A DNA stretch of 54,571 bases from Fibrobacteraceae bacterium (GTDB lineage: Bacteria; Fibrobacterota; Fibrobacteria; Fibrobacterales; Fibrobacteraceae). The notes under the pieces were generated by a model that was not told the DNA's origin, did no database searches, and saw nothing but the letters and a program-made list of their open reading frames with translations. The position numbers were made by a program, and so were the translations under genes. The DNA lies in NCBI GenBank assembly GCA_017631885.1, contig JAGBSH010000015.1, positions 1 through 54,571 on the forward strand, read 5' to 3'. This document shows, one piece after another, positions 2,243-54,571 of this stretch (position 1 is the stretch's first letter; the number at the start of each line of letters is the position of its first letter).

Positions 2243-2257
2243 ATATTAAAGGACTTT

Positions 2258-7172: not shown

Positions 7173-7190
7173 AAATCAAATTGAATTTTT

Positions 7191-7816: not shown

Positions 7817-7866
7817 TTTCAATATTTTAAAATAATTTATTGCGAAATTGTTGCTATTTTTGAGTT

Positions 7867-10064: not shown

Positions 10065-10069
10065 ATTTT

Positions 10070-10215: not shown

Positions 10216-10334
10216 CACTTGTATCTTATCCCTTACAAAAAAAACTTACTTGCAAGTTATCACTTACAAAAGACTTGTGGACAAGTTTATTATCGCTTAC
10301 AATAGACTTAGCCCACAAGTAGTCTTTGTTCAGC
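10216..10334. repeat. short tandem repeat, TTATCNCTTACAA units separated by palindromes
   Basis: TTATCNCTTACAA occurs three times (10226, 10257, 10290), a period of 31-33 bases. Each unit is followed by A-rich sequence and an ACTTG...CAAGT inverted repeat: ACTTGCAAGT, then ACTTGTGGACAAGT, then ACTTAGCCCACAAGT. A further ACTTGTACACGATTTATC lies just after the array. The alternation of conserved single-strand and hairpin parts is regular. Short open frames cross it on both strands but start at TTG without ribosome-binding sites and simply reflect the repeat. The remaining stretch, 10335-10497, shows no gene or recognisable signal. Confidence 0.7.
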
Positions 10335-10497
10335 ACTTGTACACGATTTATCTTTTCAATTTCTAAAAAAGTGAAGCAATCTATTTGCCAATTAGCTGCA
10401 GATGACAATCTCGTCAAAAAGACATCTCGCTATAAAAACTGTTTCTATACTTGCACAGCTTATGGCGAACAACTTCTAGTTATTGCAAGCAAACTAA

Positions 10498-11046: not shown

Positions 11047-11078
11047 AGCAAACAAGATAACAATTCTATATTTGGGGC

Positions 11079-11963: not shown

Positions 11964-11964
11964 A

Positions 11965-12591: not shown

Positions 12592-12597
12592 TAACAA

Positions 12598-12709
12598 GTT
12601 GTCATCGCGAACGCAGTGTGGCGATCTGTTGACAAGGAGATTGCTTCTGTCACTACGTTCCATCGCAATGACAATTTCAGGGTTGTCATCGCGAACGTAG
12701 TGTGGCTCG
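12598..12709. repeat. MITE/REP-like inverted repeat (TGTCATCGCGAACG family)
   Basis: GTTGTCATCGCGAACGCAGTG (12598-12618) pairs with CACTACGTTCCATCGCAATGACAA (12651-12674), enclosing GGCGATCTGTTGACAAGGAGATTGC. A third, partial copy, GGTTGTCATCGCGAACGTAGTGTGGC, begins at 12681. This matches a short non-coding repeat known from many bacterial genomes, usually written TGTCATTGCGAGCGAAGTGTGGCAATCT. It encodes no protein. The internal copy and the truncated third copy suggest tandem insertion or recombination. Confidence 0.75.
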
Positions 12710-12754
12710 TGGCATAGATTTAATGATAAAATTTCATTTAAAACTTTTATCTAC

Positions 12755-12785
12755 AAAAAGTCCCGAGCAAAGCTCGGGACTTTTT
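12755..12785. terminator. bidirectional rho-independent terminator
   Basis: AAAAAGTCCCGAGC-AAA-GCTCGGGACTTTTT forms a strong, nearly perfect stem with A and T runs on both sides. It can end transcription of hslO-thrH from the left and of the small protein gene (12805-13014) from the right. Confidence 0.9.
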
Positions 12786-12804
12786 GCCTTTACCTTTAAC
12801 AAAA

Positions 12805-13014
12805 TTAAACTTGTTTTTCTTCAGAAGATTCTTCTTTTGCAGGAGGTTCGGAAAATTCAGCACCGCAACAACCGCAAGGTTCATCATCTTCAAAAGTTTC
12901 ACCTTCAGACATGCAATCACATTCTAATTTACGACCGCGAACCACATGATAAAGCCCAAGTGCTGCAGCTGCTGCGGCCAAAGCCACCAAAAAATATTTT
13001 ACGATTTTTCCCAT
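12805..13014 (-). CDS. small Cys-rich single-pass membrane protein, unknown
   Basis: This 69-residue protein is not recognised. It has a short basic start, one transmembrane helix with an Ala-rich core (about residues 6-25) and the basic stop-transfer sequence HVVRGRK. A soluble tail carries the cysteines CDC and CGCC and is otherwise very acidic (Glu/Asp-rich to the end). A good Shine-Dalgarno (GAGGAGT) precedes the ATG and the gene has its own terminator, which argues that it is real. The five clustered cysteines could bind a metal or form disulfides. The tail would be cytoplasmic by the positive-inside rule, since its basic residues follow the helix. Confidence 0.75.
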   Translation of the reverse strand: MGKIVKYFLVALAAAAAALGLYHVVRGRKLECDCMSEGETFEDDEPCGCCGAEFSEPPAKEESSEEKQV

Positions 13015-13112
13015 ATTTTTAACTCCTCAACAAACAAATTAAAAGTTGAAAAAACATTCTTCCTTTAATTTAAGCTATTCAAACCATAAAAACAAGAGTT
13101 TCCTAAAAAAAT

Positions 13113-14063
13113 CTACACTCTTGATTTTTCAACTACAAGACAAATCGCAGGCAACGCCTTCATAGCAACCGATTCACTCACAATAATTTCAGAAGAGAGA
13201 ATCTTACAAGGCAAATCTTGCAAAAGAAATTCAATTCGATTTCTGTCAAAACCAAGCCAAATATGACCATGAGTTTCACGCAATTCTTCTTCATTATGCT
13301 GAGCTAAATCTAAAAGCGCTAAAATTCCACCGGGGCGTAAAATACGAACCGCTTCACGTAAAGCATCTCCAGGAGAAGGAGCATGGTGTAAAACCTGACT
13401 CATCAAAACTAAATCTGCTGAATTATCTGGCAACGGGATATCTTGCATGTTCGCACAAAGTGGTACTACATTTGTAATCCCCTTTTCCCTTAAAACAACT
13501 TTCAAATCACGAATTACTTCTTTCTGAATATCAACAGCCGTCACTTTTTCGCAACGTCCGGCAAGTAAAATACTTAAATCAGCGCCTTCCCCACAACCAA
13601 CATCAACCACATGACCATAAGGTTGAAGCAAATGAGAAAGCAAAGAGATTTGAGCTTTTAAACTACCACCCGTTTCATCTAACTTATGAAATTTACGAGC
13701 GTTATTAACTCTTCTTTCATTTAAAACCGTTTTGATTCTACTTTTCACCAACTGAAGGTCTGGCAAATTTTTATAAGCCAAACGAATCATGTCTAAAACT
13801 GTCGGGCTCATATACAAATCGTCACTCAATCCATAATAAGATTTCGTGCTTTCGCGCCTATCTTTTAAAAGTCCACAAGCTGAAAGTTTAGAAAGATGCC
13901 TACTGGCATTCGATTGGTGAATACAAAGAATATCTTTTAACTCATTTACTGTAAATTCAGAAACATCTAAAATCATCATGATTTTTAGCCGCATTTCATC
14001 TGCAAGAGCATTAAAAAGCTCTGTATTTGGCTGTAATGGTTCTGTTTTTTTCATTTTGTTCAC
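13113..14063 (-). CDS. ArsR-type HTH fused to SAM-dependent methyltransferase
   Basis: Residues about 12-85 are an ArsR-family winged helix (LADEMRLKIMMILDVSEFTVNELKDILCIHQSNASRHLSKL). Residues about 140-310 are a class I methyltransferase with motif I VVDVGCGEGADLS, a following acidic residue in VTAVDIQ and the motif LVLMSQVLHHAPSPGDALREAVRILRPGGIL. Such fusions are known in several phyla, often near methionine or SAM-cycle genes, but no such genes are next to this one. A GTG at 14063 has GGAG five bases upstream and is taken as the start; an ATG three codons later (14054) is the alternative. It could be a regulator that senses SAM or methylates a small molecule; the target is unknown. Confidence 0.85.
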   Translation of the reverse strand: MNKMKKTEPLQPNTELFNALADEMRLKIMMILDVSEFTVNELKDILCIHQSNASRHLSKLSACGLLKDRRESTKSYYGLSDDLYMSPTVLDMIRLAYKNLPDLQLVKSRIKTVLNERRVNNARKFHKLDETGGSLKAQISLLSHLLQPYGHVVDVGCGEGADLSILLAGRCEKVTAVDIQKEVIRDLKVVLREKGITNVVPLCANMQDIPLPDNSADLVLMSQVLHHAPSPGDALREAVRILRPGGILALLDLAQHNEEELRETHGHIWLGFDRNRIEFLLQDLPCKILSSEIIVSESVAMKALPAICLVVEKSRV

Positions 14064-14169
14064 AAGAACTCCAAAAATTCTTTGAATAACGTTCCTTTTA
14101 AATATAGGATTTATTTTATCAGTATTTAGGACTATTTTTATCCATTTTTAATTTTTAAATTTGATTTTG

Positions 14170-14955
14170 ATGTATAAAAATGGGCTTTTTATTGCGCTAC
14201 TAACCATACTTATTTGTCAAAGTTCACTCTTTGCAAAAGAGTCTTTATTTTATGCAAGTAAAATTCTTGATATACCTCTTGCCATTATTTCTGCAAGCAC
14301 GGCTTTAACCGGACTTTATTTCATTAAAGACTCAGAAGTTCCCAATTCTATCAAAGACAAATCATCTCTTTTACCTTGGGACAAACCTTTTGCCGGAACT
14401 TATTCAGAAAATGCTGATTTATGGAGTGATATTTTAAACGTTGGTCTGCTTTTTCCAATAGCAATAAGCGGGACAGCCCTAGCCCAAAATGACATTCAAA
14501 AAAATGATTTTTGGAAAGTCCTTTTAATGTATTCAGAAGCTTTAGCTTTACAAAGTGGGTTAAATCTTTTAACACGTTCTTTTCAACTTTGGCCTAGACC
14601 TTACCTTTACAAAACAGGTAAAGCCGAAAAAGCAAAAGGCGAAGCTTATGGTTCTTTTTATTCTGGTCATGTTTCAGCCGCATTTACTTCTGCTGTTTTT
14701 ACTTCTTACCTTTTTCATAAAATTTATCCTAATTCTAAATACAAAACTTGGGTCTCAACAGGTTCTTTTACTATTGCTTCTGCCATTGCTATTTTACGCG
14801 TTGCTGCAGGAAAACACTACCCTACTGATGTGATTGTCGGAGCATTAGCTGGTTCTGGAATAAGTCTTGGCGTTATCGCTTTACATGAACAATTCAAGTC
14901 CGATGTTTCCGTTTCTGCAGCACCTGGTTTTGCGGTTGTTAGCTTTTCATTTTAA
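14170..14955 (+). CDS. PAP2-family membrane phosphatase
   Basis: The three phosphatase motifs are recognisable: LLTRSFQLWPRPY (KxxxxxxRP-like), SFYSGHVSAAF (PSGH-like) and RVAAGKHYPTDVIVGA (SRxxxxxHxxxD-like). Several hydrophobic segments and an N-terminal signal-like stretch fit an inner-membrane enzyme facing the periplasm. PAP2 proteins dephosphorylate lipid phosphates such as undecaprenyl pyrophosphate or phosphatidylglycerol phosphate. ATG at 14170 is preferred over a TTG nine bases upstream. It is divergent from the ArsR-methyltransferase gene. The substrate is not assigned. Confidence 0.85.
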   Translation: MYKNGLFIALLTILICQSSLFAKESLFYASKILDIPLAIISASTALTGLYFIKDSEVPNSIKDKSSLLPWDKPFAGTYSENADLWSDILNVGLLFPIAISGTALAQNDIQKNDFWKVLLMYSEALALQSGLNLLTRSFQLWPRPYLYKTGKAEKAKGEAYGSFYSGHVSAAFTSAVFTSYLFHKIYPNSKYKTWVSTGSFTIASAIAILRVAAGKHYPTDVIVGALAGSGISLGVIALHEQFKSDVSVSAAPGFAVVSFSF

Positions 14956-14973
14956 TTCTAAAAACGAAATCTC

Positions 14974-15002
14974 TTGCCAATTTATTAAAGAAAAGCTATA
15001 CT
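14974..15002 (+). promoter_or_regulatory. sigma-70-type promoter of tRNA-Ala
   Basis: TTGCCA (14974-14979) and TATACT (14997-15002) are separated by exactly 17 bases, and the tRNA begins 12 bases after the -10 box. It is the cleanest housekeeping promoter seen in the window. Confidence 0.75.
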
Positions 15003-15014
15003 TTTTTTGCATTC

Positions 15015-15087
15015 GGGGATATAGCTCAGTTGGTAGAGCGATACGTTCGCAATGTATAGGCCAGGGGTTCGACTCCCCTTATCTCCA
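15015..15087 (+). tRNA. tRNA-Ala (anticodon CGC)
   Basis: A 73-base cloverleaf folds by eye. The acceptor stem is GGGGATA/TATCTCC with A as discriminator, the D arm is GCTC-AGTTGGTA-GAGC, the anticodon stem ATACG/TGTAT encloses loop TTCGCAA (anticodon CGC), and the T arm is AGGGG-TTCGACT-CCCCT. The G3-U70 wobble pair, the identity element of alanine tRNA, is present, which supports the assignment. The CCA end is not fully encoded. It sits alone between its own promoter and a terminator. Confidence 0.93.
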
Positions 15088-15130
15088 TTCAATACTTTAA
15101 TAATGTAAAGGTAAGACAAAAAATCAAAGT

Positions 15131-15156
15131 AAAAGGCTAGCGAATGCTAGCCTTTT
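15131..15156. terminator. bidirectional terminator after tRNA-Ala
   Basis: AAAAGGCTAGC-GAAT-GCTAGCCTTTT is an 11-base perfect stem with A/T runs at both sides. It lies between the tRNA and the stop of the oppositely oriented esterase gene and can serve both. Confidence 0.85.
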
Positions 15157-15176
15157 GTATTATTACAAGTGAACTT

Positions 15177-16373
15177 TTAGAAATTTTTGCATTGACCATT
15201 CCAACGACCTTGTGTTCCGTTCGCTACATAAATAGGTCCATCAATATATTTACCGGTTGAACCTACAAAATCTGCCTTACGGAAATCTTCTCCACCAAGG
15301 TGCCAACGCATCCAAGCAACAGTTGCAGGAATGCCATCCCATGCGCCAGAGCCGTGCCCCCAACCGCATTCCCCATTATAGCATTCAGTTCCGTTTCCGC
15401 CAGTCATTTTAATAAGGCAAGCCGGGGCTTTCACACCATTATTGTGATAATCTGCTTCTGCATTAGGCCGTTCCATACCACCTTCACCATAAACAATGGC
15501 AATCGTTTTATTTGTTGGAACCTGAGCCATAGCAGAATGGCCTAAATCACCACTATTGTTAAGTAATGCAGTAATAACACGACTATCTTTAATAAGCATT
15601 TGTTCTGATTCAAGACCTCCCATAGAATGCCCAGAGCAACCTACTTTAGTCATATCTAATTTAGCATACAATGGGTCGCCTGGAGTATTGTTTTTATTTT
15701 CAAGCCAATCAAGGGCTTTTTTCCCTTGAGATGCATCACCTGGAGATTCTCGAAGAGCAATCACCACAAAACCATGAGAAGCAAGACGACGAATCATGCC
15801 GCCATAAGCACCAGGTTCTGTACCACCACCAGGTCCCCACATCACAACAGCATGCTTTTTAGTTTCTGAAAGTCGTTTTGGATGAGCAAGAATTCCACCG
15901 CCATCCCAACCAGTGTTAGTGATGTATTCTACTTCCATTTCGTCACCATTTTCATTGGTGCCATTAGCTAAGAAAATACCTCCTTCTTCTGCAACAGAGC
16001 TAGAACTCGGTTCTTCTACAACAGGTTCACTTGAACTAGATTCCGGAACAAGCATTTCACTAGAACTAGATTCAACAACATCACCGACATTTGGGTTGCT
16101 TGAAGAATCTGGAGTTGGAGGAATTAAAATTGTGGCAGAATCAAAAGGATTTTCTGGATTATCTGGTGTTACTATTGGTTGGTTCGGGTCAATATTCACA
16201 TCTGGATTTAATGAATCTACTGGCAAATTACCAATCTGATCCTGAAGTTGATCTTCTGCATCAGAGATAGCTGAGTTTACTTTATCTGTAGCTTCTGAAC
16301 AATTTAAGAAAGCTAAAGAAACACCCAATAAACAAACCCCTTTCACTAAACTTTTAAAGTTAATGGTTTTCAT
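15177..16373 (-). CDS. secreted alpha/beta-hydrolase lipoprotein (esterase-like)
   Basis: A signal peptide ends at a lipobox-like FLNC. A linker of about 100 residues rich in Pro and Asp and carrying three SSSS tracts (about residues 85-130) follows, a style typical of Fibrobacter surface lipoproteins. The catalytic domain resembles the chlorophyllase/PET-hydrolase-like alpha/beta hydrolases: HAVVMWGPGGGTEPGAYGGM (oxyanion region), FVVIALRESPG, the nucleophile elbow GCSGHSMGG, and a late His in GECGWGHGSGAW. It probably hydrolyses an ester at the cell surface, for example on plant polysaccharides, but the substrate is unknown. The start is supported by AAAGGAG. Three copies of a 10-base motif lie just upstream (see the separate entry). 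Confidence 0.85.
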   Translation of the reverse strand: MKTINFKSLVKGVCLLGVSLAFLNCSEATDKVNSAISDAEDQLQDQIGNLPVDSLNPDVNIDPNQPIVTPDNPENPFDSATILIPPTPDSSSNPNVGDVVESSSSEMLVPESSSSEPVVEEPSSSSVAEEGGIFLANGTNENGDEMEVEYITNTGWDGGGILAHPKRLSETKKHAVVMWGPGGGTEPGAYGGMIRRLASHGFVVIALRESPGDASQGKKALDWLENKNNTPGDPLYAKLDMTKVGCSGHSMGGLESEQMLIKDSRVITALLNNSGDLGHSAMAQVPTNKTIAIVYGEGGMERPNAEADYHNNGVKAPACLIKMTGGNGTECYNGECGWGHGSGAWDGIPATVAWMRWHLGGEDFRKADFVGSTGKYIDGPIYVANGTQGRWNGQCKNF

Positions 16374-16430
16374 TTTTACTCCTTTAATAACGGATTTATC
16401 TAAAGATACCTTGAGTAAAAAAGAAAAATG

Positions 16431-16484
16431 ATTTATCCATTAAGGATTTTATGGATAAATAGTCAACATGGATAAATAATCCAT
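16431..16484 (-). promoter_or_regulatory. triple ATTTATCCAT motif, candidate operator
   Basis: On the minus strand, ATTTATCCAT occurs at 16477-16468 and 16460-16451 as a direct repeat 17 bases apart, and as its exact reverse complement at 16440-16431. All three lie 58-104 bases upstream of the esterase-lipoprotein start, in what should be its promoter region. The motif differs from a DnaA box (TTATCCACA) at its 3' end. A regulator-binding function is inferred from copy number and position only. Confidence 0.5.
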
Positions 16485-16487
16485 ATA

Positions 16488-16518
16488 AAAAAACAACCCG
16501 CCGGCAAATGCCGGCGGG
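16488..16518 (-). terminator. terminator of the porin gene
   Basis: CCCGCCGGC-AAAT-GCCGGCGGG (16498-16518) forms a perfect 9-base GC stem. Read on the minus strand it is followed by TTGTTTTTTT. It lies 27 bases after the porin stop. Confidence 0.9.
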
Positions 16519-16545
16519 AAGTATACTTTCAGAATTCGCTAAGAA

Positions 16546-18324
16546 TTAGAAACTAAAGACAGTTTCAACACCAAACTTGAGAGTTGTGTCGTCTTCGTTA
16601 TCACCCATAGCAATGTCGACCATACCAAATGCAGTAAGTTCGAGATTTTCTACTGGAGAAATGTACACACGACCACCAACATCAAGAGTTTCTTGAGTTG
16701 AATCATCGTCGTCAAGAGTATTGGTGTGGTATTCTACAGGAATTCCGAGCTTGATGAATTCAGCCAACTTGAGAGCTGGTTCTGCATACAAGAAGAAGTA
16801 TTCTGGAATTTCACCACTATAGAGGTCCAAATTACCAGCATCGCCTTCGTCAATAAATGCATAGAAAGCTGTTGTTTTAATCTGGAACATTGCCACTTCA
16901 AAGCTTGGTTCTGCCAAAACAGTGTGAGCTGTTGAAGTCCAATCTTGCCCCTTAACCATATCTTCATCGTCCATGAGATAATCCGCATGGAATCCATAAA
17001 CTGCACGGAAAGCAAAACCGCCAATGGAAACACCGGCATCTACACCTGCATGCAATTCATTATGTTGTAATGTCTGGTAGCTCTTATAATCGAAATATGG
17101 GCGCAAATGTTGACCAGCATAATCAAATTCATAAGCTACATGAGCATCATAGTTTTTACCAGATTCTTCTACGCAATTGTCTCCAGCGTAACAAATTCCA
17201 CGAGTATCGTTTTCGCCACGACCAAAGCCAAATCCGAGTTCCAAACCAGCAAGAGTAATTTGAATACCACGAATATCATGTTCTTTCATACCTGCTGCAT
17301 TGTAAGCAGGATCATCATAACCATAATAAGACTTGAATGCGCCTTCAGAGAAAGTCAAATCACCGACTTTAACATTGAAGAAATCAGCTGGTTTATATTG
17401 GATATATGCTCCATTATAAATTGCTGCTGGAGAAGCAGATTCACCATCAGCTTCTAAACCAACAAATGCAGACCACTTATCATTGAATTGAACATCAACA
17501 TTCAAATCAAAGGTCGATGCATAAGAATGATTCAAATCGGCATCGTTAATAACGTCACCGGTATAAACGTCAAATTCTACTTCACCAGAGAAATTAACTT
17601 TCATTTCTGCTTTAGAAGTTGCTTCATTCATGCTAGCTTTGAGTAAATCAAGAGCGTTTCCAGCAGCAGCTGAAACTTCGCCCTTTTCTTCTGCCTTTGG
17701 TGCTTCAGCAGCTGGCTTTGTTTCTTCTACTTTCTTAGCTTCTGGTTCTGCCTTAGCTGTTTCTGCCTTTGGTGCTTCGGCTGCTGGCTTTGCTTCTTCT
17801 ACTTTCTTTGCTTCTGGTGCAGCCTTAGCTGTTTCTGCCTTTGGTGCTTCAGCTACTGGCTTTGCTTCTTCAACTTTCTTGGCTTCTGCGGCTGGCTTAG
17901 CGGCTTCTGCCTTTGGTGCTTCAGCAGCTGGCTTTGCTTCTTCTACTTTCTTTGCTTCTGGTGCAGCCTTAGCTGCTTCTGCCTTTGGTGCTTCAGCAGC
18001 TGGCTTTGCTTCTTCTACTTTCTTTGCTTCTGGTGCAGCCTTAGCTGCTTCTGCCTTTGGTGCTTCGGCTGCTGGCTTTGCTTCTTCAACTTTCTTTGCT
18101 TCGGCTGCTGGCTTAGCGGCTTCTGCCTTTGGAGCTTCGGCGGCTGGCTTTGCTTCTTCTACTTTCTTTGCTTCTGCTGCTGGCTTAGCGGCTTCTGCCT
18201 TTGGAGCTTCGGCTACTGGCTTTGCAGGTTGTTCTGCTGGCTTTGCTGCAGGAGCTGTAGCCTGTGCAAAAACACTAGCAGCCGCAAAGCTTAAAAGCAT
18301 TGCAGAAAATTTCATTTTTTTCAT
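16546..18324 (-). CDS. outer-membrane beta-barrel protein with Ala/Lys/Glu/Pro-rich repeat arm
   Basis: A typical signal peptide is cleaved after VFA. Residues about 39-215 are seven tandem 24-residue repeats (consensus AEAKKVEEAKPAAEAPK plus EAAKPA). A domain with alternating hydrophobic residues then continues to the end and finishes in VFSF, the terminal aromatic expected of an outer-membrane barrel (about 370 residues; porin-like, with Asp-rich loops). The charged, Pro-containing repeat could cross the periplasm or bind peptidoglycan, as TonB-like arms do. AAAGGAG precedes the ATG and a strong terminator follows, so this looks like a well expressed single-gene unit. The transported solute, if any, is unknown. 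Confidence 0.8.
   Translation of the reverse strand: MKKMKFSAMLLSFAAASVFAQATAPAAKPAEQPAKPVAEAPKAEAAKPAAEAKKVEEAKPAAEAPKAEAAKPAAEAKKVEEAKPAAEAPKAEAAKAAPEAKKVEEAKPAAEAPKAEAAKAAPEAKKVEEAKPAAEAPKAEAAKPAAEAKKVEEAKPVAEAPKAETAKAAPEAKKVEEAKPAAEAPKAETAKAEPEAKKVEETKPAAEAPKAEEKGEVSAAAGNALDLLKASMNEATSKAEMKVNFSGEVEFDVYTGDVINDADLNHSYASTFDLNVDVQFNDKWSAFVGLEADGESASPAAIYNGAYIQYKPADFFNVKVGDLTFSEGAFKSYYGYDDPAYNAAGMKEHDIRGIQITLAGLELGFGFGRGENDTRGICYAGDNCVEESGKNYDAHVAYEFDYAGQHLRPYFDYKSYQTLQHNELHAGVDAGVSIGGFAFRAVYGFHADYLMDDEDMVKGQDWTSTAHTVLAEPSFEVAMFQIKTTAFYAFIDEGDAGNLDLYSGEIPEYFFLYAEPALKLAEFIKLGIPVEYHTNTLDDDDSTQETLDVGGRVYISPVENLELTAFGMVDIAMGDNEDDTTLKFGVETVFSF
17677..18210 (-). repeat. seven in-frame 72-base repeats in the porin gene
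   Basis: The 72-base unit encodes 24 residues built around KKVEEAKP and EAPKAE. Seven full copies plus one partial copy differ by a few conservative changes (KPA/KAA, EAA/ETA, AEA/PEA). Copies that alternate AEA and PEA show that the array has been shuffled by recombination, so length variation between strains is expected. Confidence 0.9.
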
Positions 18325-18662
18325 ATTTTCTCCTTTAGAGTTTTTTTGTTTGAATTTGGGTAGGTCAAAACATAATTAAATTAGTGTGCTTTATCACATT
18401 TTTCTTACAGTTTTAAGACTAAATGGTTGTTTTTTTACGATGTTTACTTTTGAAAATTCATTTTTTACACATAATAAAAAGCTTTTATGCTGTAAATATT
18501 TTTAAACATTTGAAACCGATATAATTCTCTTTACCCCAGAACACAAATTTTATCCGTTTTTATTTTTGCACACTTATAAAAAAGTTCTATTTAAAATTTT
18601 TGTAAGATAAAGTCCTTTTTTTTAATGATATATTTCTTTAAAATTATTCTTTTAGGTACTTT
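18325..18662. other. AT-rich divergent intergenic region
   Basis: These 338 bases separate the divergent porin and DUF4874 genes and must hold both promoters. The porin ribosome-binding site (AAAGGAG) lies at the left end. The rest is very AT-rich. TTGAAA followed after 16 bases by TAATAA (about 18452-18479) is a possible plus-strand promoter, but it is not convincing. No open frame, hairpin or repeat is evident. Confidence 0.5.
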
Positions 18663-20576
18663 ATGATTTTTCTTAAAACGCAAAAAATCTTTATCATTTT
18701 ATTTTTCTTTTTAATCTCTTTCGCCTATTCTGCTGAATTAGTAAAACAAAATTTGGATTATACCGATCATATCCAAACGTTTTACAACCCAGACAGAGGA
18801 TTTTATGTTCCTCAAGTAATTCATTTTAAACCAACTGGGGCAAGTGCTAACCCTTGGAGTCGCTTTTTACACTTACGGGCTGAAATTTCAGAATTTTCTA
18901 GCAATGCCGTGTGGGATACTTGTGCAACATGTCATGGGACAACACAAGATTTAACAACTGCTATGCTAGATTCTCTCAAAGCTTTTTTAAATAAAATCCG
19001 AGAAAAAAATGGGACCGTTGTTTTACGATTTTGCTATGACCCTTGGTTTGAAGGGAAAGCCAACATGGAACCCGAACAAGAAATTATTCTAAGACATGTC
19101 CGACAGCTTTCAAAAATTTATTCTGAATACGACGATGTAATTACTTTTGTTGAACTTGGAATGTATGGCCCTTATGGAGAAAATCACTCTAGTAAAATCG
19201 CCACGGCAGAGAATTCAGGTTACGCTCTACGTGAAATGATATTAAATACATCCAAAAATGTAGATATTGGTGCTAGAACAGCCCCTGTTGTTGCTAGAGC
19301 TTTTGGTTTTTCTCCGACAACAATTTTAGATACTCTTTCTAAAGAACCTCTCAAATTAGGCGATACACTTGCTTGGAATTATGGTGTTTCTTTTGATATA
19401 AACCACCCTTATTTCAAACAAAAAGCCGATTCCATTGGCGAAGATATTTTTCGTGTAGGTCTTTTTAACGATGGTTATCTTGGAACAGAATACGATTACG
19501 GAACTTGGGGTGCTGATTGTAAAACTAGTATTTGTCGAGATCGCGGAACGGACTGGCTTGAAAAATATGGTAAACACGTTCCTTATGGTGGCGAAGCTCT
19601 CACTACAGCCTCTGGATACAAAAAAATAAATACACCAGCATTCCTTGCTTACGAAGGCTTTCGTACTCACACCAGTTATTTAAATATCCAATGGAATTAC
19701 AATTTAATCAACGAATGGAAAGAAACTCCGTTTACGCCAAGACATGATATAGATTCCGCATATAAATCCTATGAAAGAAATGATACTCTTTTTAATAGTG
19801 GTTTTAAATATATTGAAGACCATTTAGGGTATCGTTATGTGTTAAAAGAATCGAATATGTTTGATTCTCTTGGTACCGGAAGTCTTTTAAAAATCAAACT
19901 AAAAATTCAAAATGTCGGCTTTGGAAATATGACAAAAAAACGCCCTGTTACCATAATGTTGCGTTCGCACCAAATGATTGATTCCTCTTACACATTAAAT
20001 GATAAAACCATTGATACTCTGGTTTACGCTAAACGCATAGAACTCAAACTAGAAAATGATTTTGACCCACAAACTATTTATTCTAGAACTATGACAAAAG
20101 ATACAATCGTCACTTTTGATAGAACTAATGAATTTGAAATAACGACTCAACTTCCTGAAAATTTACCAGATGACTCTTATGATGTTTTTTTACGTATTTC
20201 TCAATACGGAAATTGGCCTAGCGATAAAAACTATTCTACAATCCGTTTTGCAAACGATTCAACTTATTTTGATAATATAACTGGAGCAAATTTAATAGGC
20301 AGTTTTGTACTAAGTAAAAAAGCACCAGTTATCTCAAGAATACCACAAGAAAATTCACTCCAATCTAAGTTTAATTTTCATATCCACGAAAAGAACCTCT
20401 ATATAAATAACGCAACGTCTATCGAAATATTTAATATAAAAGGCGTTCTTTTATATTCTCAAAAACTTTCTTCAATGCAATCAGTCATTGCTTTAAACCC
20501 ATTACCTAAAGGTTTATTAGTAGTAAAAATCTATAATCCAAACAAAAGTTTCTCTCAAATTATCCGAAATCAATAA
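18663..20576 (+). CDS. secreted DUF4874/DUF4832 protein with C-terminal sorting-like domain
   Basis: A hydrophobic signal peptide (residues about 5-24) is followed by YNPDRGFYVPQ, the opening of DUF4874, and by VVLRFCYDPWFEG and VITFVELGMYGPYGE. The DUF4832 part follows (AYEGFRTHTSYLNIQWNYNLINEWK). These paired domains occur in secreted, glycosidase-like proteins of unproven activity. The last 75 residues (SIEIFNIKGVLLYSQKL ... PLPKGLLVVKIYN) look like a C-terminal secretion/sorting domain of the type IX kind, which suggests a cell-surface or released product. There is no strong ribosome-binding site. Function is likely to involve carbohydrate, but this is unproven. Confidence 0.75.
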   Translation: MIFLKTQKIFIILFFFLISFAYSAELVKQNLDYTDHIQTFYNPDRGFYVPQVIHFKPTGASANPWSRFLHLRAEISEFSSNAVWDTCATCHGTTQDLTTAMLDSLKAFLNKIREKNGTVVLRFCYDPWFEGKANMEPEQEIILRHVRQLSKIYSEYDDVITFVELGMYGPYGENHSSKIATAENSGYALREMILNTSKNVDIGARTAPVVARAFGFSPTTILDTLSKEPLKLGDTLAWNYGVSFDINHPYFKQKADSIGEDIFRVGLFNDGYLGTEYDYGTWGADCKTSICRDRGTDWLEKYGKHVPYGGEALTTASGYKKINTPAFLAYEGFRTHTSYLNIQWNYNLINEWKETPFTPRHDIDSAYKSYERNDTLFNSGFKYIEDHLGYRYVLKESNMFDSLGTGSLLKIKLKIQNVGFGNMTKKRPVTIMLRSHQMIDSSYTLNDKTIDTLVYAKRIELKLENDFDPQTIYSRTMTKDTIVTFDRTNEFEITTQLPENLPDDSYDVFLRISQYGNWPSDKNYSTIRFANDSTYFDNITGANLIGSFVLSKKAPVISRIPQENSLQSKFNFHIHEKNLYINNATSIEIFNIKGVLLYSQKLSSMQSVIALNPLPKGLLVVKIYNPNKSFSQIIRNQ

Positions 20577-39941: not shown

Positions 39942-42257
39942 TCACTCTTCTGGATAAGCACAACACCTAAATCCAATAGATGAATTTTTATAAAATGCCG
40001 CCACTTTTTTATAAGGTGTATTGCCTCCTAACAAGAAAACCACTTCGATTCTATCCGGTTCATATTCCATATTTCCAGCTAAATTTTTTAACCACTTTTC
40101 TCCCCCTTTGCGATATTCTTGTAAAGGAGCATAATCATAACCTACAATTTCTCCTGTTGCAGGATTTTTTACAGCAAAAAATTGCAAAGAATCCTTAAAA
40201 TCTTTTTGCGTTAACTTTTTATAAAGCGTTCTTGTTGTATCTTCTACTAAACTTGTATCTACAACTGTCCCACTACGATACAAATAAACGATTGTATCTT
40301 TTACAAAAGCGCGCCTTGTATAAAATGGAAAGAATCTGTTTGTACAAAGCGCAATAGATTCTCTATCAAGCCCATCATAAGAACGATAACTAGAACCTTT
40401 TAGCAATTCCAATGTATCTGCAGAACGTCCTAAAACCCATTCTTGATAATTTCCGGGTAAATCACGCACACCAGAAGCATTCACACATTTATAATTACGA
40501 GCTTCTAATGATGCCGCCGAAATAGAATCATTTGTCGCTACATTACAATTAGTGTAAAGGTATTCAGATGCTGAAATATCTTCTTCTACAACTCCATAAG
40601 AAGAAATGCCATTTGTCAAACAAACTAACTCCCAATCACGTTCTCCACAAAGAGCTGTTTTAAATCCTGATACAGAAAGAGAACTACAAGCCGCAACCGC
40701 TTCTGAATGGAGAACATTTGTCATAAATTCTCCCGAAGAATCTTGATGTTCAAAACGTTCCATACAAAAACGCAAAGAATCACCTAAAGCCACAGGTAAA
40801 AATCCTTCTGGACAATTCATATTTGCATTTTCTCCTGGAGAAACATAAATCGTATCTATCAAAGCCCTAGAATAATACCCAGATGAATCTATTGAACGCA
40901 CTCGTAAAATTAAAGTATCTCCAGGAGAAACCCAACGAATCGTATCTGTAACAAATGTTCCCTTTTCAAAATACTGCATAGAATCTGATTCTATTGCATA
41001 ATAATCTAAATAGCGTTCCTCTGATTTACCACCAGCCTCACTTAAACGAACCCATTCATCATTCATCCACCTATCTATTTCGTAAGATTCAACACTGCGA
41101 TAACAGAAAAATTCATAACAAGTATCTGGCACAACTAAAACAGAATCTTCTAATATACCATGATCTTCTTTAAATGGATCTAAACTCCGACTCCAAAAAA
41201 TCCGTAGTCGATTATTACTATCTAAACGCGCAAGTTCTGGCTTTAAAGAATCTCTCATAAACCATAAAGCCGTAGGCATTGTTGGTGCCACTTTATCAGT
41301 TGTAATAAACATTTGATTCATTTCGGCTGACGTTGTTGAACCAGAATAATTTCCAGAAGAATCAAATGCTGTAATCCCAATCGTATAACGTGATTGTGAT
41401 TTTAATCCAGAAAGAACCAAGCGGAAACGATTTAAAGAATCCGTTTCTGAAAAACCTTCTCCATCAAGAACTGCCAAGCGAAGGTAACGTTTTTCTTCTT
41501 TATCAGAAATTTTTTCATCTAACCAGACAGAATCATTACGAGCTCGAAAACGAGCATTTTTTACATAAAGTTCACTTCCTAAAGAATCCGTTTTCAAAGA
41601 ATGAATAACAGTAACTTTTAAATCTTTGATGCTTTCAGATTCATCTAACGCATAAACAACCACATTATACCCTGCAATCGGCCCAGAAATATTTTCTGGC
41701 GTATAAAAATCAGTCTGATCTGTTGGCCTAGACCAATCAAATGCAGCGCCAGTAGCCCATACAGAATCTTGCAAAGAAATAATTGCTGGTGCCATATCAT
41801 CGCCGAAATGCACAAATACCCGCTGCACTGCTCCAGGGTCTTCACCATCTGTATATTCAGGCCAAATAGCGATTTGTACACTATCTCTATCAGCAAATTC
41901 TTTCAATTCTTCTGTCAAATCTAAAGTATCATAATAACCTTTAGGTTCCTTTGGAAAAGGTATTTCCATCGTAGCATTCTTTTTTGCTTCAGAAGAAACA
42001 GAACGAGTTGTATCATCAATAACTGTAGTATCTAACCATATTAAAAATTGTTTTAAATCTTCTGTTTCTATTGGATAGCGATAACGCAAACGGAAACAAG
42101 AACTTTCTTTTGAATCTGCAGCACAAGTTTTCAAAATACTCATTTCAAGAATTTCTCTATCAAAAAGGTATTCTTCACCATCAGAATCATCAGAACATGC
42201 TATGCAAAAAATAGCACAGCACAAAAAAGAAAGTATTAAAAACAATTTCTTTTTCAT
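39942..42257 (-). CDS. large lipoprotein with fibronectin-like region and C-terminal FGE-like domain
   Basis: The lipobox CIAC ends a normal signal peptide. About 400 residues of beta-rich sequence follow, with fibronectin type III-like elements (LSGLKSQSRYTIGITAFDSSGNYS). The C-terminal 250 residues resemble the FGE/SUMF1 fold: FCMERFEHQDSSGEFM, ALCGERDWELVCLTNG, VRDLPGNYQEWVLGRS, LLKGSSYRSYD and the ending SIGFRCCAYPEE. That mirrors the protein at 6048-7172 and suggests a paralogous family of surface scaffolds. It has 771 residues and starts six bases after the glnN stop, so it may be read through from glnN. Function unknown. Confidence 0.8.
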   Translation of the reverse strand: MKKKLFLILSFLCCAIFCIACSDDSDGEEYLFDREILEMSILKTCAADSKESSCFRLRYRYPIETEDLKQFLIWLDTTVIDDTTRSVSSEAKKNATMEIPFPKEPKGYYDTLDLTEELKEFADRDSVQIAIWPEYTDGEDPGAVQRVFVHFGDDMAPAIISLQDSVWATGAAFDWSRPTDQTDFYTPENISGPIAGYNVVVYALDESESIKDLKVTVIHSLKTDSLGSELYVKNARFRARNDSVWLDEKISDKEEKRYLRLAVLDGEGFSETDSLNRFRLVLSGLKSQSRYTIGITAFDSSGNYSGSTTSAEMNQMFITTDKVAPTMPTALWFMRDSLKPELARLDSNNRLRIFWSRSLDPFKEDHGILEDSVLVVPDTCYEFFCYRSVESYEIDRWMNDEWVRLSEAGGKSEERYLDYYAIESDSMQYFEKGTFVTDTIRWVSPGDTLILRVRSIDSSGYYSRALIDTIYVSPGENANMNCPEGFLPVALGDSLRFCMERFEHQDSSGEFMTNVLHSEAVAACSSLSVSGFKTALCGERDWELVCLTNGISSYGVVEEDISASEYLYTNCNVATNDSISAASLEARNYKCVNASGVRDLPGNYQEWVLGRSADTLELLKGSSYRSYDGLDRESIALCTNRFFPFYTRRAFVKDTIVYLYRSGTVVDTSLVEDTTRTLYKKLTQKDFKDSLQFFAVKNPATGEIVGYDYAPLQEYRKGGEKWLKNLAGNMEYEPDRIEVVFLLGGNTPYKKVAAFYKNSSIGFRCCAYPEE

Positions 42258-44585: not shown

Positions 44586-45065
44586 TTATTCTTCAACAAC
44601 TTCTTCTGATTCTGTGGCAGGCTTTGCCACATTTCCAAGCAAAGCATCAACAGAAATGCTCTGTAAATCCACTAAAGTTTTCACTTGAGTTTTTGGATCT
44701 TCAGAAACATTTGCAAATGTAGACACAATGAACAAATCTGAAGTCAAAGAGAATGTACGAGTCTTTTGTGAAATACTATTAGAACCCTTTGTACTTGGAA
44801 ATGCTTTTGATTCCAAGTCAGCCATTTGCTTAGCGGTCTTTACATTTTGAATAGCATTTGAAGCCAAAGCCCAAAGATCGCGATTTTGTTCAATACCTGA
44901 ATTCACAAAACCCAAAAGCTGTGAGGAGCCTTTAAAACTTTTAGATGTTGTTTCTTCATAATGACTCTGAGCTTGAGAAATATAATTACCTTTCTGCATA
45001 AAAAGCATAATGGCAATCAAAACCGCTAGAACTGTTGCAACAATAGAAATCAATTTAATATTCAT
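44586..45065 (-). CDS. small membrane-anchored protein, unknown (pair member 2)
   Basis: This 159-residue protein is not recognised. It has one N-terminal membrane helix (about residues 5-22) without a lipobox, then an alpha-helical, polar periplasmic region rich in Gln, Ser and Lys (YEETTSKSFKGSSQ, IQNVKTAKQMADLES) and an acidic end (ESEEVVEE). Its organisation matches the gene directly upstream (helix, then soluble domain; 11-base gap), and the two form one transcript ended by a terminator. It could be a pilin-like or envelope structural protein, but nothing proves it. Confidence 0.75.
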   Translation of the reverse strand: MNIKLISIVATVLAVLIAIMLFMQKGNYISQAQSHYEETTSKSFKGSSQLLGFVNSGIEQNRDLWALASNAIQNVKTAKQMADLESKAFPSTKGSNSISQKTRTFSLTSDLFIVSTFANVSEDPKTQVKTLVDLQSISVDALLGNVAKPATESEEVVEE

Positions 45066-45076: not shown

Positions 45077-45646
45077 CTATTCAAAACGGAATGGTGCAGG
45101 TTCAGCCAATTTAAAATGTTCTGCAGGTACATACTTTTCAAGAGCGCTATAATCTAAAGATTTAAGATTTCCCTTTACAAAGGTGAATGAAATTTTGCAA
45201 TCTTTTCCACAAGCAACTTCTTTTACACCATTTTCATTTTTCAAAAGAATTGAACCTTCAGCATACCCCAATTCGCTAAATTGCAATTGTGCTTTTTCTG
45301 GAATACCTGCTGCAGAATAAAGATGCTGTACTTGACGTTCTCTAGCAGGTTTATCATTTTCAATCGCTTTTAAACGAGCGTCAAAAGATTTTTCTGATTT
45401 ATCTTTAGAAGACACCGTTTCAAAAACAAGACGCCATGCCATGCCAAACTGGTCTACAGACTTCCATTGTTCATGCAAAATATCATTTGCTTGTTTACGA
45501 TAAGCATCACGTTGTTCTGTAGCCAATTTCTGAGCCATTTCGCCATATTGACCTTTCAAAACAAACATAACTACAGCAAGAGCCACAATAATTACAATAT
45601 CAATGGCTAAAAGAATCTTGAATTTTTTCATTTTATCTGGATTCAT
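45077..45646 (-). CDS. small membrane-anchored protein, unknown (pair member 1)
   Basis: This 189-residue protein starts with a single membrane helix (about residues 8-28, KILLAIDIVIIVALAVVMFVL). A helical region follows (YGEMAQKLATEQRDAYRKQ) and then a beta-rich C-terminal half with two cysteines in VACGKDC. The two cysteines, four residues apart and probably outside the membrane, may form a disulfide. It is the first gene of a two-gene unit with the 44586-45065 gene. No family is recognised. The upstream region 45647-45784 shows no clear promoter, only AT-rich sequence. Confidence 0.75.
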   Translation of the reverse strand: MNPDKMKKFKILLAIDIVIIVALAVVMFVLKGQYGEMAQKLATEQRDAYRKQANDILHEQWKSVDQFGMAWRLVFETVSSKDKSEKSFDARLKAIENDKPARERQVQHLYSAAGIPEKAQLQFSELGYAEGSILLKNENGVKEVACGKDCKISFTFVKGNLKSLDYSALEKYVPAEHFKLAEPAPFRFE

Positions 45647-50622: not shown

Positions 50623-53600
50623 TTAACGTTTTCCACGTTTTTTCTTTGATTTCTTTTTAGAAGATTTTGCCTTTTTATCTTCTTTAGGCTTATCTTCTTC
50701 TTTTTTCACTACAGGTGCAGCACTCTGCTGATTACGAACATCACGCAATTTGAATGTTACATTAATTTCTGCAGTCTGGACTTGAGACATAGCACCGCCC
50801 TTATCCTGCAATTTAAATGTGAATTCATCAATTCCGCTAAAGCCTTTTTTAGGTTCGTAAACAAAAGAGCCGTCTTTTTCATTCAATTTAACAGAACCAT
50901 TCTTTGGTTTATTAACCAAAATTACCTTTACAGCTTGTTCATTATCAGGGTCAGAAGATCCATTCATCAAGCCTTCTCTTTCAGAAACATTAAGAGATGT
51001 TCCTTCTTGAGTCTGGTAATGTTGAGCTACAGCTACCGGAGGGTTATTTACAGCAATAACAGTAAATTTAGCCGTCTTAAAAACTTTAGCTCCTTCTGGA
51101 TCGGTTACAGTGAAAGTAATCTTTTCTGGGGCACCTTTCCAATGAGAATATGGTTGTGCAATTGTCATTGTATTCTTGTACTTGTCATGAGTAACTGTCA
51201 AATACTTATTCCCAGAGAAAGACCATTTCAATTCATTGAAACGATGATCACGGTCACGAGCCAACTGATTCAATTTCAAAACAGCCAAAACGCCACCATT
51301 TTCATTTTCCTTGATTGTGTAATCTGGAATGTCTCTCATTTCAGGAACCGCATTAACATGCTGAATAATAAATTCTGCTGTTGTCTTTGCTGTTATACCT
51401 GCTGGGTCACGCACAATGAAGGTAATCTTTTCAGAACCAAACCATTCTGCTTTCTTTGGCTTAATTGTTGCAACTCTAGATCCACTGATCTGCACATCAA
51501 GCATGCGGGCACCTGAAACGCTCCACTTCATTTCTGAAGGTTTGTTATCAGGATCTTTTACATACTTATCCAAAGAAATCGTTTTGAATGCTTTGCCTTC
51601 AAGAATCTTTTCTCCAGGAATTTCAGAAATTTGTGGAGGGTCATTAACCGGATGTACTACAAAACGTACTTGAGTAGAAGCCTTTTCACCACTAGGGTCA
51701 AATGCAACTATCGTAACTGTTTCATTACCATTCCAATTAGGATTTGGAGCAGAAACGGTTAACTTACCATCGCTGAAGGAATAATCCAACTTGCGATCTG
51801 TTTTAGGTGCTTTTGCCTTTGTTTTACGGCCACGTTTATCTTTGCCTTCTGGTTCTCCGTCATCACGAGTAAAGTAAAGTTCAGAAATTTTATTATCTGG
51901 GTCCTTTACAAACTCAGCAAGATTAATCACAGGGAATTCTTGTTTTTCTTTGATTTCCACTGGCTTCATCTGTTTGAAGAACGGAGGATCATTCACTGCA
52001 TTTACTTTGAAAGTAACTTTTGTTTCATCAGAAGCACCACTTGGGTCGCTAACCTTGAAAGTCAAAGTTTCTTGACCATACCAATTTGTATTAGGTGTGG
52101 TGATATTTGCACGTGTTCCCTTGATTTCAACCTTCAATTCTTTAGCACCAGAAACAGTCCACTTTAATTCAGCAGGCTTATTATCTGGGTCTTTAGCTGC
52201 ATTTGAAAGATCAATAGGAGCAAAACGTTCTTTTTCTTTAATTGTCTGTGGAGCTATCTTAGCAATTTTTGGAGGGTCATTAACAGGTTGAACTGTGTAA
52301 AGAACTTGTTGCGTTGCTTTAGCGCCTTCTGGGTCTGTAACGGTTACAGTAACTTTTTCTGAACCACTCCAGAATTTATCAGCAACAGAAACAACCAATT
52401 GATTTTTCTTATCAATTGAAGCTTTCAAATTGCGTGTTTCAGCAACAGAGAATTTCAATGCAGATGTTGGGTGGTCAAGGTCACTAACCAATTCGCCCAA
52501 AGCAACTGATTTGAATTTTTCTTTTTCCTTAATTGTCTGTGGAGCAATTGCCTTCAAGACAGGAACATCATTTACAGATTCAACTTCAAATACAGCAGAT
52601 CTAGAATCCTTAGCACCTTCTGGATCTGTGACAGTAAAGGTTATCTTACGAGCACCATGCCATTGTTCTGAAGGCAACTTGATATAAGCAATGCGATTAT
52701 TATCAATTGTCACAGTCATATCAGGAGTTTCAACTTTAGGCTCTTCTTTTTGCTTTTTATTTTTCTTACCCTTAGCTTTTTTCGGAGCCTTTTTAGCAGA
52801 AGTTTCTGCTTCTACTTTTTCAACTTTTGCAGTCCATACCAATTTTTCTTTTTGATGGTCTGCATCCATTACAAACTGATCCAACTTAATTTCGCGGAAT
52901 TTTGCTTTTTCTTTAATCTTCTGTCCTTGAATATCCTTCATTTGAGGAGGATTATTTACAGAAGTGATTTCATAGAAAACAGTCATTGTATCTGCATAAC
53001 CTGCTGGGTCAGCTACACGCAAAGTAATAGGTTGAGAAGGGCACCAGAAGTGTTTATTTTCTGCAGAAACTTGTAATTGACGGCTAGGAGTAATTTCAAC
53101 TTTTAAACCTTTCTTAATGTCCTTAGCATTCTTGATGGTCCATTTCATTTCAGCTGGTTTATTATCAGAATCCTTTACAAACTGATCTAAACGAACCGCT
53201 TCAAACTTTCCACCTTCTTTAATCTTCTGGTTTGCAATCTTTTGAATTTTTGGAGAATCGTTCACCGGAGTCACTTCAAAATTCATACGATGTGTTGCTT
53301 TAGCACCTTCTGGGTCTGTGACTGTGAAAGTCAGAGTTTCACGACCATTCCATTCCGAATCTGGAGTAGAAATAGTAACCGTATTATCTTTGTTAATCTT
53401 GGCTTTCAAAGCTTTATTGCCAGAAATTGCCCATGTCAACTGTGAGGCAGAATGATCTGCATCACTTGCAAGAGAAGAAAGCAAAACTGATTTGAATTTT
53501 TCACCTTCACGAATTTTTTCTCCAGCAGGAGCTTCTTTTGAAATAACCGGAGCATCGTTTACACTCTTAACGGTAAATATTGCAGAAGAAGAAACTGTAG

Positions 53601-54571
53601 CACCTTCTGGGTCTGTGACAGTAAAGGTTATCTTTGCTGCTCCATTCCAATTCTTATCAGGAATCAAAATAGAAGCTACACCATCTTCTTTAATTCCAAC
53701 TTGTAATTCAGAAGTTTTAGATTCTGGTTCTTCTTTTTTAGCTTTTTTACCTTTCTTTTTAGCAGGAGCTGCTTGTTCAACATACTTTTCAGCGTTCCAA
53801 CTCCATTTTAAATCTTCTGGTTTATGGTCAAAATCCTTAACCATATCACGCAAACGAATCTGAGCGAACTGTTTCTTTTCGTCAATCGTCTGATCTTGTA
53901 TTTGCTTTACAAATTCAGGCTTATCGTTTACAGATTCAACAGTAAATTCAACATCTTGAGTTACTTTAGCACCTTCTGGGTCTGTAACTGTTAATGTTAC
54001 CTTTTCTGTTCCATTCCAATATTTATTTGGAATAGTTACTTTCAATTGACGTTCACCATTAACAGCCAATTTTAATGTTTTATTGCCTGTAAATGTCCAT
54101 TTTAATTTAGCAGCCGGGTGATCAGCATCCTTTACAAAGTCATTCAAATCAATAGTTTTGAATTCGCCTTTTTCCTTGATCTTTTGTGCTGGAATTTCTT
54201 TTACAAATACAGGTGCATCGTTTACACTCTTAACAGCAAATGTTACAACTTGCTTTGCACTAGCACCTTCTGGGTCTGTAACAGTAAAGGTAACTTTTTC
54301 TGTACCATTCCAAAGTTCATTTGGTGCTTTAACAGAAACTGTTCCATCTTTACCAACACTTACTTTCAAGTCTTTATTACCAGAAACAGCAACTTTCAAT
54401 TTACCAAATTCATGGTCTTCGTCTTTAATAAGTTCTGAAAGATTGAATGCCTTGAATTCTTGTTTTTCTTGGATTTCTTGATTTTCAATTGCCTTCGCAA
54501 ATACCGGAGCATCATTTACACTCTTAACGGTAAAGGTTGCTTTTGAACTTGCTGTTGCGCCATCTGGGTCA
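50623..54571 (-). CDS. giant tandem-repeat (cadherin/Ig-like) surface protein, 5' end off window
   Basis: The frame is open to the right edge, so at least 1315 residues are visible without the N-terminus. The visible part is a series of about 98-residue repeats, each closing with TFTVTDPEGA-like and VNDxP-like motifs (eleven VND/VNN junctions in window order). The last repeat (GTSLNVSEREGLMNGSSDPDN, KNGSVKLNEKDGSFVYEP) is the classic tandem-95/VCBS cadherin-like domain. Three repeats carry lysine-rich inserts. The C-terminus is a basic KKSKKKRGKR tail of about 28 residues, of the type seen as basic terminal domains in Fibrobacter. It is likely a long adhesin or fibre on the cell surface. No substrate can be named. 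Confidence 0.85.
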   Translation of the reverse strand, partial: DPDGATASSKATFTVKSVNDAPVFAKAIENQEIQEKQEFKAFNLSELIKDEDHEFGKLKVAVSGNKDLKVSVGKDGTVSVKAPNELWNGTEKVTFTVTDPEGASAKQVVTFAVKSVNDAPVFVKEIPAQKIKEKGEFKTIDLNDFVKDADHPAAKLKWTFTGNKTLKLAVNGERQLKVTIPNKYWNGTEKVTLTVTDPEGAKVTQDVEFTVESVNDKPEFVKQIQDQTIDEKKQFAQIRLRDMVKDFDHKPEDLKWSWNAEKYVEQAAPAKKKGKKAKKEEPESKTSELQVGIKEDGVASILIPDKNWNGAAKITFTVTDPEGATVSSSAIFTVKSVNDAPVISKEAPAGEKIREGEKFKSVLLSSLASDADHSASQLTWAISGNKALKAKINKDNTVTISTPDSEWNGRETLTFTVTDPEGAKATHRMNFEVTPVNDSPKIQKIANQKIKEGGKFEAVRLDQFVKDSDNKPAEMKWTIKNAKDIKKGLKVEITPSRQLQVSAENKHFWCPSQPITLRVADPAGYADTMTVFYEITSVNNPPQMKDIQGQKIKEKAKFREIKLDQFVMDADHQKEKLVWTAKVEKVEAETSAKKAPKKAKGKKNKKQKEEPKVETPDMTVTIDNNRIAYIKLPSEQWHGARKITFTVTDPEGAKDSRSAVFEVESVNDVPVLKAIAPQTIKEKEKFKSVALGELVSDLDHPTSALKFSVAETRNLKASIDKKNQLVVSVADKFWSGSEKVTVTVTDPEGAKATQQVLYTVQPVNDPPKIAKIAPQTIKEKERFAPIDLSNAAKDPDNKPAELKWTVSGAKELKVEIKGTRANITTPNTNWYGQETLTFKVSDPSGASDETKVTFKVNAVNDPPFFKQMKPVEIKEKQEFPVINLAEFVKDPDNKISELYFTRDDGEPEGKDKRGRKTKAKAPKTDRKLDYSFSDGKLTVSAPNPNWNGNETVTIVAFDPSGEKASTQVRFVVHPVNDPPQISEIPGEKILEGKAFKTISLDKYVKDPDNKPSEMKWSVSGARMLDVQISGSRVATIKPKKAEWFGSEKITFIVRDPAGITAKTTAEFIIQHVNAVPEMRDIPDYTIKENENGGVLAVLKLNQLARDRDHRFNELKWSFSGNKYLTVTHDKYKNTMTIAQPYSHWKGAPEKITFTVTDPEGAKVFKTAKFTVIAVNNPPVAVAQHYQTQEGTSLNVSEREGLMNGSSDPDNEQAVKVILVNKPKNGSVKLNEKDGSFVYEPKKGFSGIDEFTFKLQDKGGAMSQVQTAEINVTFKLRDVRNQQSAAPVVKKEEDKPKEDKKAKSSKKKSKKKRGKR
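50770..54571 (-). repeat. about 11 tandem cadherin-like repeats with three Lys-rich inserts
   Basis: Distances between successive VND junctions are 98, 123, 99, 102, 128, 97, 96, 116, 97 and 102 residues. The three long units carry the inserts, at about 53707-53784, 52726-52818 and 51787-51861. They are the second, fifth and eighth complete units, exactly every third. Units with inserts 1 and 2 resemble each other, as do the units after each, so three-repeat blocks appear to have been duplicated. Confidence 0.85.

Follow-up and report, generated by a model that had tools for sequence, protein, structure and literature searches.

A three-module super-repeat with a phase-locked loop in a giant tandem-95 protein of the Fibrobacterales

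Introduction

Bacterial immunoglobulin (Ig)-repeat stalks are usually viewed as rows of interchangeable modules that vary in number. Does this view apply to a giant protein of the Fibrobacterales, an order to which major fibre degraders in the guts of herbivores belong? The question is raised by a stretch of 54,571 nucleotides (the window), which is the entire contig JAGBSH010000015.1 (C21) of a 2.37-Mb Fibrobacteraceae genome (GCA_017631885.1) whose relatives are named Fibrobacter. On its minus strand, an open reading frame (ORF) from 54570 to 50623 encodes 1,315 amino acids plus a stop, forming the C-terminal half of a giant Ig-repeat protein. As the window is a whole contig, the gene is cut at the contig end and the 5′ end of the ORF is open. 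A preliminary description of the window had noticed that every third repeat is longer, had ascribed the extra length to Lys-rich inserts, and had proposed a three-domain block as the duplicating unit. We found that module identity in this protein is position-specific, unlike the usual view of bacterial Ig stalks.

An insert in every third repeat, always in the same hairpin

In the window, successive repeat junctions are 98, 98, 123, 99, 102, 128, 97, 96, 116, 97, and 102 residues apart. Every third repeat thus measures 116–128 residues and the others 96–102, just as first described, and the excess corresponds to three Lys-rich inserts. Repeat numbers below follow the orthologs, and the phases A, B, and C denote position within a three-module block; all window coordinates of this gene refer to the minus strand. 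The three long repeats, assigned from junctions, inserts, and ortholog mapping, are all of phase B: repeat 14 (53548..53916) with insert YVEQAAPAKKKGKKAKKEEPESKTS (53710..53784), repeat 17 (52561..52944) with insert VEAETSAKKAPKKAKGKKNKKQKEEPKVETP (52723..52815), and repeat 20 (51634..51981) with insert PEGKDKRGRKTKAKAPKTDR (51793..51852).

Scanning 50 orthologs, drawn from two families of the order, with a one-repeat profile of 97 positions gave 1,079 repeats. An insert was present in 343/343 phase-B repeats (positions 2 mod 3, namely 2, 5, 8, and so on to 20) vs 3/736 of the others, so the regularity seen in the window extends through the rest of the gene. The off-phase cases were repeat 21 of two genomes (G101 and G102) and repeat 10 of one of them (G101). 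All inserts fall at model position 43, in the hairpin turn between two strands, and no insert of at least five residues was found in any other loop of the 1,079 repeats. By simple arithmetic, the chance that 7 of 22 positions all share one phase is 10/170,544. The same hairpin carries a second phase mark at column 41, where Gly occupies every A and C position except 18 and B repeats 2–17 mostly have Val or Ile.

The inserts differ along the chain. In the 22-repeat form, their mean lengths at repeats 2, 5, 8, 11, 14, 17, and 20 were 8, 8, 8, 9, 24, 35, and 22 residues, and their mean net charges, in the same order, were −0.8, −0.5, +1.2, +1.8, +2.9, +4.1, and +6.0. Those of repeats 2, 5, 8, and 11 have 3–12 residues, mostly 8–10, and that of repeat 17 ranges from 17 to 44 residues across these orthologs. 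This profile indicates that the phase of the insert is universal and that its Lys-rich character is limited to the last three blocks. The view that the extra length is always a Lys-rich insert therefore applies to the three long repeats of the window; repeats 2, 5, 8, and 11 carry short and nearly neutral ones.

A period of three in the repeat cores

The period was also present in the repeat cores of the 43 full-length 22-repeat orthologs, for which identity was computed with the inserts removed. At offsets 1–6, identity averaged 43.3, 43.6, 50.2, 43.4, 43.3, and 47.7%, and the peaks continued at offset 9 (45.7%) and offset 12 (43.7%). Because identity peaks at offset three, the three-domain block is the ancestral unit. 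In a detrended shuffle test, period 3 was reached in 0/3000 shuffles and period 6, a multiple of three, in 14/3000, and periods 2, 4, 5, and 7 gave no signal. The test ignores kinship between orthologs, but it used one averaged matrix and single genomes gave the same result. A neighbour-joining tree of single repeats likewise grouped B repeats 2–17, C repeats 3–12, and A repeats 7–13. Over the whole gene, then, the peaks at offsets 3, 6, and 9 and the phase clades both bear out the proposed three-domain block over a single-repeat period.

The signal is strong in repeats 1–14, where identity at offset three was 54.6%, and for repeats 12–22 alone period 3 was not significant (333/3000). In the window by itself, core identity was 42% at offset three vs 39% at both shorter offsets, a result equalled by 684/2000 shuffles. 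The motifs that had been quoted as shared between equivalent repeats are present in the translation, but inside the window their sharing does not rise above chance.

As controls, we took a small set of seven other tandem-95 or Ig-repeat proteins, of which four gave at least four repeats and three could not be segmented with the profile. Period 3 was found in none of the four usable controls: an outgroup protein showed no period, similarity fell with distance in two, and a Variovorax protein had a two-module super-period. In the latter, a tandem-95 protein of Variovorax paradoxus CP063167.1 (L133, locus 1-19902), identity was 77% at offset 2 vs 57% at offset 1. Duplication in blocks is therefore not peculiar to the giant protein, whose unusual part is the phase-locked loop together with the constant repeat count. 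The literature on tandem-95 proteins and bacterial Ig super-repeats yielded passing mentions only.

Repeat number and loss of a whole block

Repeat number hardly varied: 43/50 orthologs had 22 repeats, and 7/50, forming one clade nested among the 22-repeat orthologs, had 19. Repeats 1–8 of the 19-repeat form matched repeats 1–8 of the longer form and repeats 10–19 matched 13–22, with the order kept, so that the two forms differ by a single break at repeats 8–9 and a shift of three. A clean chimera of repeats 9 and 12 was not resolved at this junction, where repeat 9 of the shorter form was equally like both. The alignment indicates that one three-module block was lost in register in the 19-repeat clade, the sole copy-number event in the sample and a further argument for the block as the duplicating unit. 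Identity between orthologs was even along the chain, at 48–58%. Taking the sequence and evolutionary evidence as a whole, the 22 modules almost certainly represent seven A-B-C blocks plus a final A.

Predicted fold, charge, and cellular location

AlphaFold2 models built from eight sequences covered repeats 13–17 and the C-terminal part, with mean predicted local distance difference test (pLDDT) scores of 81.6 and 81.5. In the first model, pLDDT fell below 50 only at residues 147–166 and 468–495, which correspond to two Lys-rich loops: the middle of the repeat 14 insert and the repeat 17 insert. In the second, only the 36-residue C-terminal tail did so, and the repeat 20 insert was modelled with moderate confidence. 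Disorder is thus predicted for the tail and for the inserts of modules 14 and 17, which are loops at the same fixed position. The modules themselves are predicted to be cadherin-like beta-sandwiches. Foldseek placed cadherin ectodomains first and also matched an RTX adhesin extender (6xi1, Aeromonas hydrophila), while a PDB sequence search returned one weak match only. With these nearest solved folds the giant protein shares acidic motifs at module ends, although identity is 12–18% and TM-scores over multi-module chains are low. A DxD[HNDG] motif was found in 1031/1079 repeats, as was ND or NN at the junction (1031/1079), and such conserved acidic motifs would be expected of calcium sites at module ends.

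Net charge rises along the molecule: repeats 1–7 each have −4 to −8.5, and repeats 14–22 roughly −1 to +3. Its correlation with repeat position had a rho of 0.90 for the mean and of 0.47–0.90 in single genomes. The tail (NQQSAAPVVKKEEDKPKEDKKAKSSKKKSKKKRGKR, 50626..50733) is basic as first described, with a net charge of +4 to +14 and positive in 49/49 orthologs measured. On the sequence evidence, we have little doubt that the molecule is charge-polarised, with acidic N-terminal modules 1–7 and neutral or basic modules 14–22 and tail. The suggestion of regularly spaced positive patches along the fibre is borne out in part only. Of the seven blocks it fits just the final three, the loops are Lys/Glu polyampholytes, and two of the three long ones are about neutral in the 19-repeat form.

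Among the families searched, we recognised no signal for outer-membrane export or anchoring. The genome encodes SprA of the type IX system and has 28 TIGR04183 matches above the cut-off elsewhere, none of them in the giant ORF, and an identity as type IX cargo was rejected for lack of this sorting domain. Elsewhere in the window, a 637-amino-acid ORF on the plus strand (18663-20576) ends in a TIGR04183 type IX sorting domain (20394-20558). No adhesive domain was recognised either; in Pfam and NCBIfam scans only Ig/cadherin-type repeats convincingly covered the chain, and other matches were weak or partial. A novel adhesive site may lie within the repeats. With a signal peptide and no recognised export signal, the protein could be placed in either the periplasm or at the surface.

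The main tables of proteomic papers on F. succinogenes name no protein of matching mass and isoelectric point (pI). The cadherin proteins FSU_2931 and FSU_2932 of that species (PMC4619616) were rejected on these grounds (22 and 318 kDa, pI 4.69), as the 19-repeat form, which is not established as F. succinogenes' own, has ~236 kDa and a pI of 5.4–5.5.

Possible roles of the super-repeat

With the phase fixed and the copy number almost so, both spacing and length appear to matter to this protein. We tentatively propose, at somewhat below an even chance, that the C-terminal third of the molecule docks on an anionic polymer of the envelope. Judging from fold and motifs, modules with DxD and ND would form a calcium-stiffened rod. 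The loops of the last three B modules and the basic tail, from their charge, would then dock the C-terminal third electrostatically onto lipopolysaccharide, capsule, or peptidoglycan, with one flexible-loop contact per three modules. The acidic N-terminal part would stay free or meet another partner. A bacterial counterpart of titin's arrangement, in which the three-module block would be length-matched to a regular partner along the envelope, each block would make one contact through its loop, and the nearly fixed total of seven blocks would set a length as a molecular ruler or spacer, is quite improbable.

Several observations weigh against docking. Four of the seven loops are short and carry almost no charge, and the long ones are Lys/Glu polyampholytes with a modest net charge, because Glu accompanies Lys. 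In the 19-repeat form, the loops at repeats 11 and 14 average 0 and −1. Calcium binding is deduced from motifs only, and the predicted TM-scores of the two models are low (0.36 and 0.38), so that the models fix neither module orientation nor a shared loop face. Moreover, none of the 12 genomes sampled from genus g5 had the giant gene, nor did two genomes of the window's own genus (G003 and G013), and its absence from the g5 genomes and G003 makes it dispensable.

The main rival to docking is a purely historical account, in which the B module of an ancestral A-B-C block had a slightly longer loop, the block was duplicated several times, and growth was later tolerated in this loop only, where Lys/Glu-rich sequence built up by drift or slippage. 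The period would then be a record of ancestry, and the loops would have no specific role. Ancestry alone would account for the block loss as well as the phase clades, the variable length and sequence of the loops between orthologs fit it (as at repeat 17 of the 22-repeat form), and the two-module super-period of the Variovorax protein shows that duplication of multi-domain blocks is not special. However, loops 14, 17, and 20 of the 22-repeat form are positive in most orthologs despite varying in sequence and length, the tail is basic in every ortholog measured, and the count of 22 repeats holds in two families. Recent codon slippage as the origin of the inserts was also rejected, as it is not evident in the window codons, which mix AAA and AAG with identical-codon runs of no more than two; older slippage may remain. 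We consider this account rather unlikely. An ordinary fibrillar adhesin, whose Ig stalk would be anchored through the basic C-terminus, with N-terminal modules binding plant fibre or cells and an incidental period, appears improbable. Long cell-surface proteins of bacteria often carry tandem-95 and cadherin-like repeats (PMC9210967) and Fibrobacter attaches to cellulose via surface proteins (PMC3079729), but here repeats run from the signal peptide and linker to a 23rd module with no distinct adhesive domain, and no export or anchoring signal was recognised. The even identity along the chain and the nearly invariant repeat number, unlike variable-length adhesin stalks (PMC9210967), also argue against it.

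Very unlikely, in our judgement, is self-assembly, whereby one molecule's acidic N-terminal half would pair with another's basic C-terminal half to give staggered filaments or a layer in three-module register. The charge polarity found in all genomes and the regular loop spacing would suit such pairing, but long charged loops occur in only 3/7 blocks and the polarity equally suits the docking model.

Relation to known systems

A single repeat of the giant protein is a member of the tandem-95 family (NF012211), with 368.6 bits (E 9e-113) for the window ORF (P0001) and 183.5 bits (E 5e-55) for P0002, both gene halves being above the curated cut-off of 90 bits. The repeat is also Pfam Big_9 (PF17963, E 1e-94) or Cadherin_5 (PF17892). 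Repeats stand head-to-tail at 96–102 residues except for the B repeats, in line with the ~95–98 residues of tandem-95. What the giant protein adds to such proteins is the three-module super-repeat, the phase-locked loop, and the nearly fixed copy number.

In its organisation, the protein resembles titin, whose A-band super-repeats consist of 7 or 11 FnIII and Ig domains matched to the myosin filament (PMC10665226). There, modules at equal positions are most alike, most strongly in the central super-repeats and weakly at the ends (PMC10665226). The giant protein likewise arranges Ig-type modules in super-repeats, its modules resemble those at equivalent positions more than their neighbours, and its copy number has changed by a whole block, albeit in one event. 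Its positional likeness also fades at the chain end, being strong in repeats 1–14 and absent in 15–22. Unlike titin, the block has three modules of one type, and the likeness is one of organisation, with no homology claimed.

With fibrillar adhesins (PMC9210967, PMC8286594) the protein shares a long Ig-like stalk and a signal peptide, but it differs in having no recognised adhesive domain or anchor and a nearly constant length. Fibrobacter BTD/FPm-1, a region of ~45–90 residues in carbohydrate-active enzymes, has been proposed as a type IX secretion signal (PMC3079729, PMC6851124). Like proteins bearing it, the giant protein would be a secreted Fibrobacter protein with a basic C-terminus; unlike in BTD, its basic part comprises 9–45 residues after an Ig module and has no TIGR04183 match. 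The giant protein would be an unstudied envelope protein of the Fibrobacterales and makes it possible to test whether a bacterial Ig rod has a periodic function.

Gene structure in the window and on a second contig

A typical ortholog has ~2,400–2,490 amino acids: a Sec signal peptide, a short Ala/Pro-rich linker, the 22 modules, a divergent 23rd Ig module, and the basic tail. A search of the source genome gave two strong places, the window ORF and a 692-amino-acid ORF of the same repeat type that is cut by the end of contig C32. The latter begins with a signal-peptide-like N-terminus, read by eye from the sequence without a predictor, followed by an Ala/Pro-rich linker. Most likely, the two ORFs are the ends of one gene with its middle missing. 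Ortholog mapping assigned repeats 1–7 to the C32 part and the end of repeat 11 through repeat 22 to the window.

In this genome, repeat 6 was no closer to its ortholog counterpart than to ortholog repeats 12 and 9. This ambiguity means that the repeat number of the source genome is fixed by phase only, at 19, 22, or 25. At the DNA level, repeat 6 (L008:16160-16587, at the C32 end) is ~80% identical to repeat 12 of the window (54170-54490). Gene conversion or a recent block change could possibly account for this likeness, which likely caused the assembly break.

The window ORF opens with the end of a B-phase repeat, number 11 by ortholog numbering (54505..54570), recognised with the repeat hidden Markov model (HMM) and phased from the repeats after it. 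Besides the three long B repeats, junctions and ortholog mapping defined C-phase repeats 12 (54211..54504), 15 (53251..53547), 18 (52270..52560), and 21 (51343..51633), and A-phase repeats 16 (52945..53250), 19 (51982..52269), and 22 (51037..51342). A-phase repeat 13 (53917..54210), delimited by its junctions, best matched ortholog repeat 10 (57%) and then 13 (54%), both of phase A. The divergent 23rd Ig module (50734..51036) matched Big_9 and Cadherin_5 better than any other part of the protein did, gave a weak repeat-HMM match, and is well ordered in the model. The same genome also encodes another, distant protein, whose 1,045-amino-acid frame (G000:C9:75283-76452, L117) contains a few cadherin-like Ig repeats but lacks the three-module period.

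Distribution and gene neighbourhood

Homologs were found in 44/61 genomes of the family and 85/168 of the phylum, including another family of the order (G101 and G102). Beyond the order, the 168 phylum genomes held generic tandem-95 proteins only (G094 and G097). A divergent group upstream of the giant gene (L008:11829-14179, minus strand), kept in nearly all relatives, encodes a 136-amino-acid protein, an M23 peptidase, and a 144-amino-acid lipoprotein-like protein, the first and last with no Pfam match. Downstream, a Wzc-like kinase and a SurA-like gene were rejected as partners, as this side varies between relatives.

Three further ORFs on the minus strand of the window had no Pfam match: a lipoprotein-like one of 771 amino acids (39942-42257) and two small ones (44586-45065 and 45077-45646). 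The 136-amino-acid protein and the M23 peptidase persist where the giant gene is missing. Absence of the giant gene beside these neighbours was recorded at loci in G003 (L126), G034 (L127), G005 (L128), G023 (L129), and G008 (L130). In G003 and three g5 genomes, the conserved upstream neighbours stand without the giant gene and other genes fill its place.

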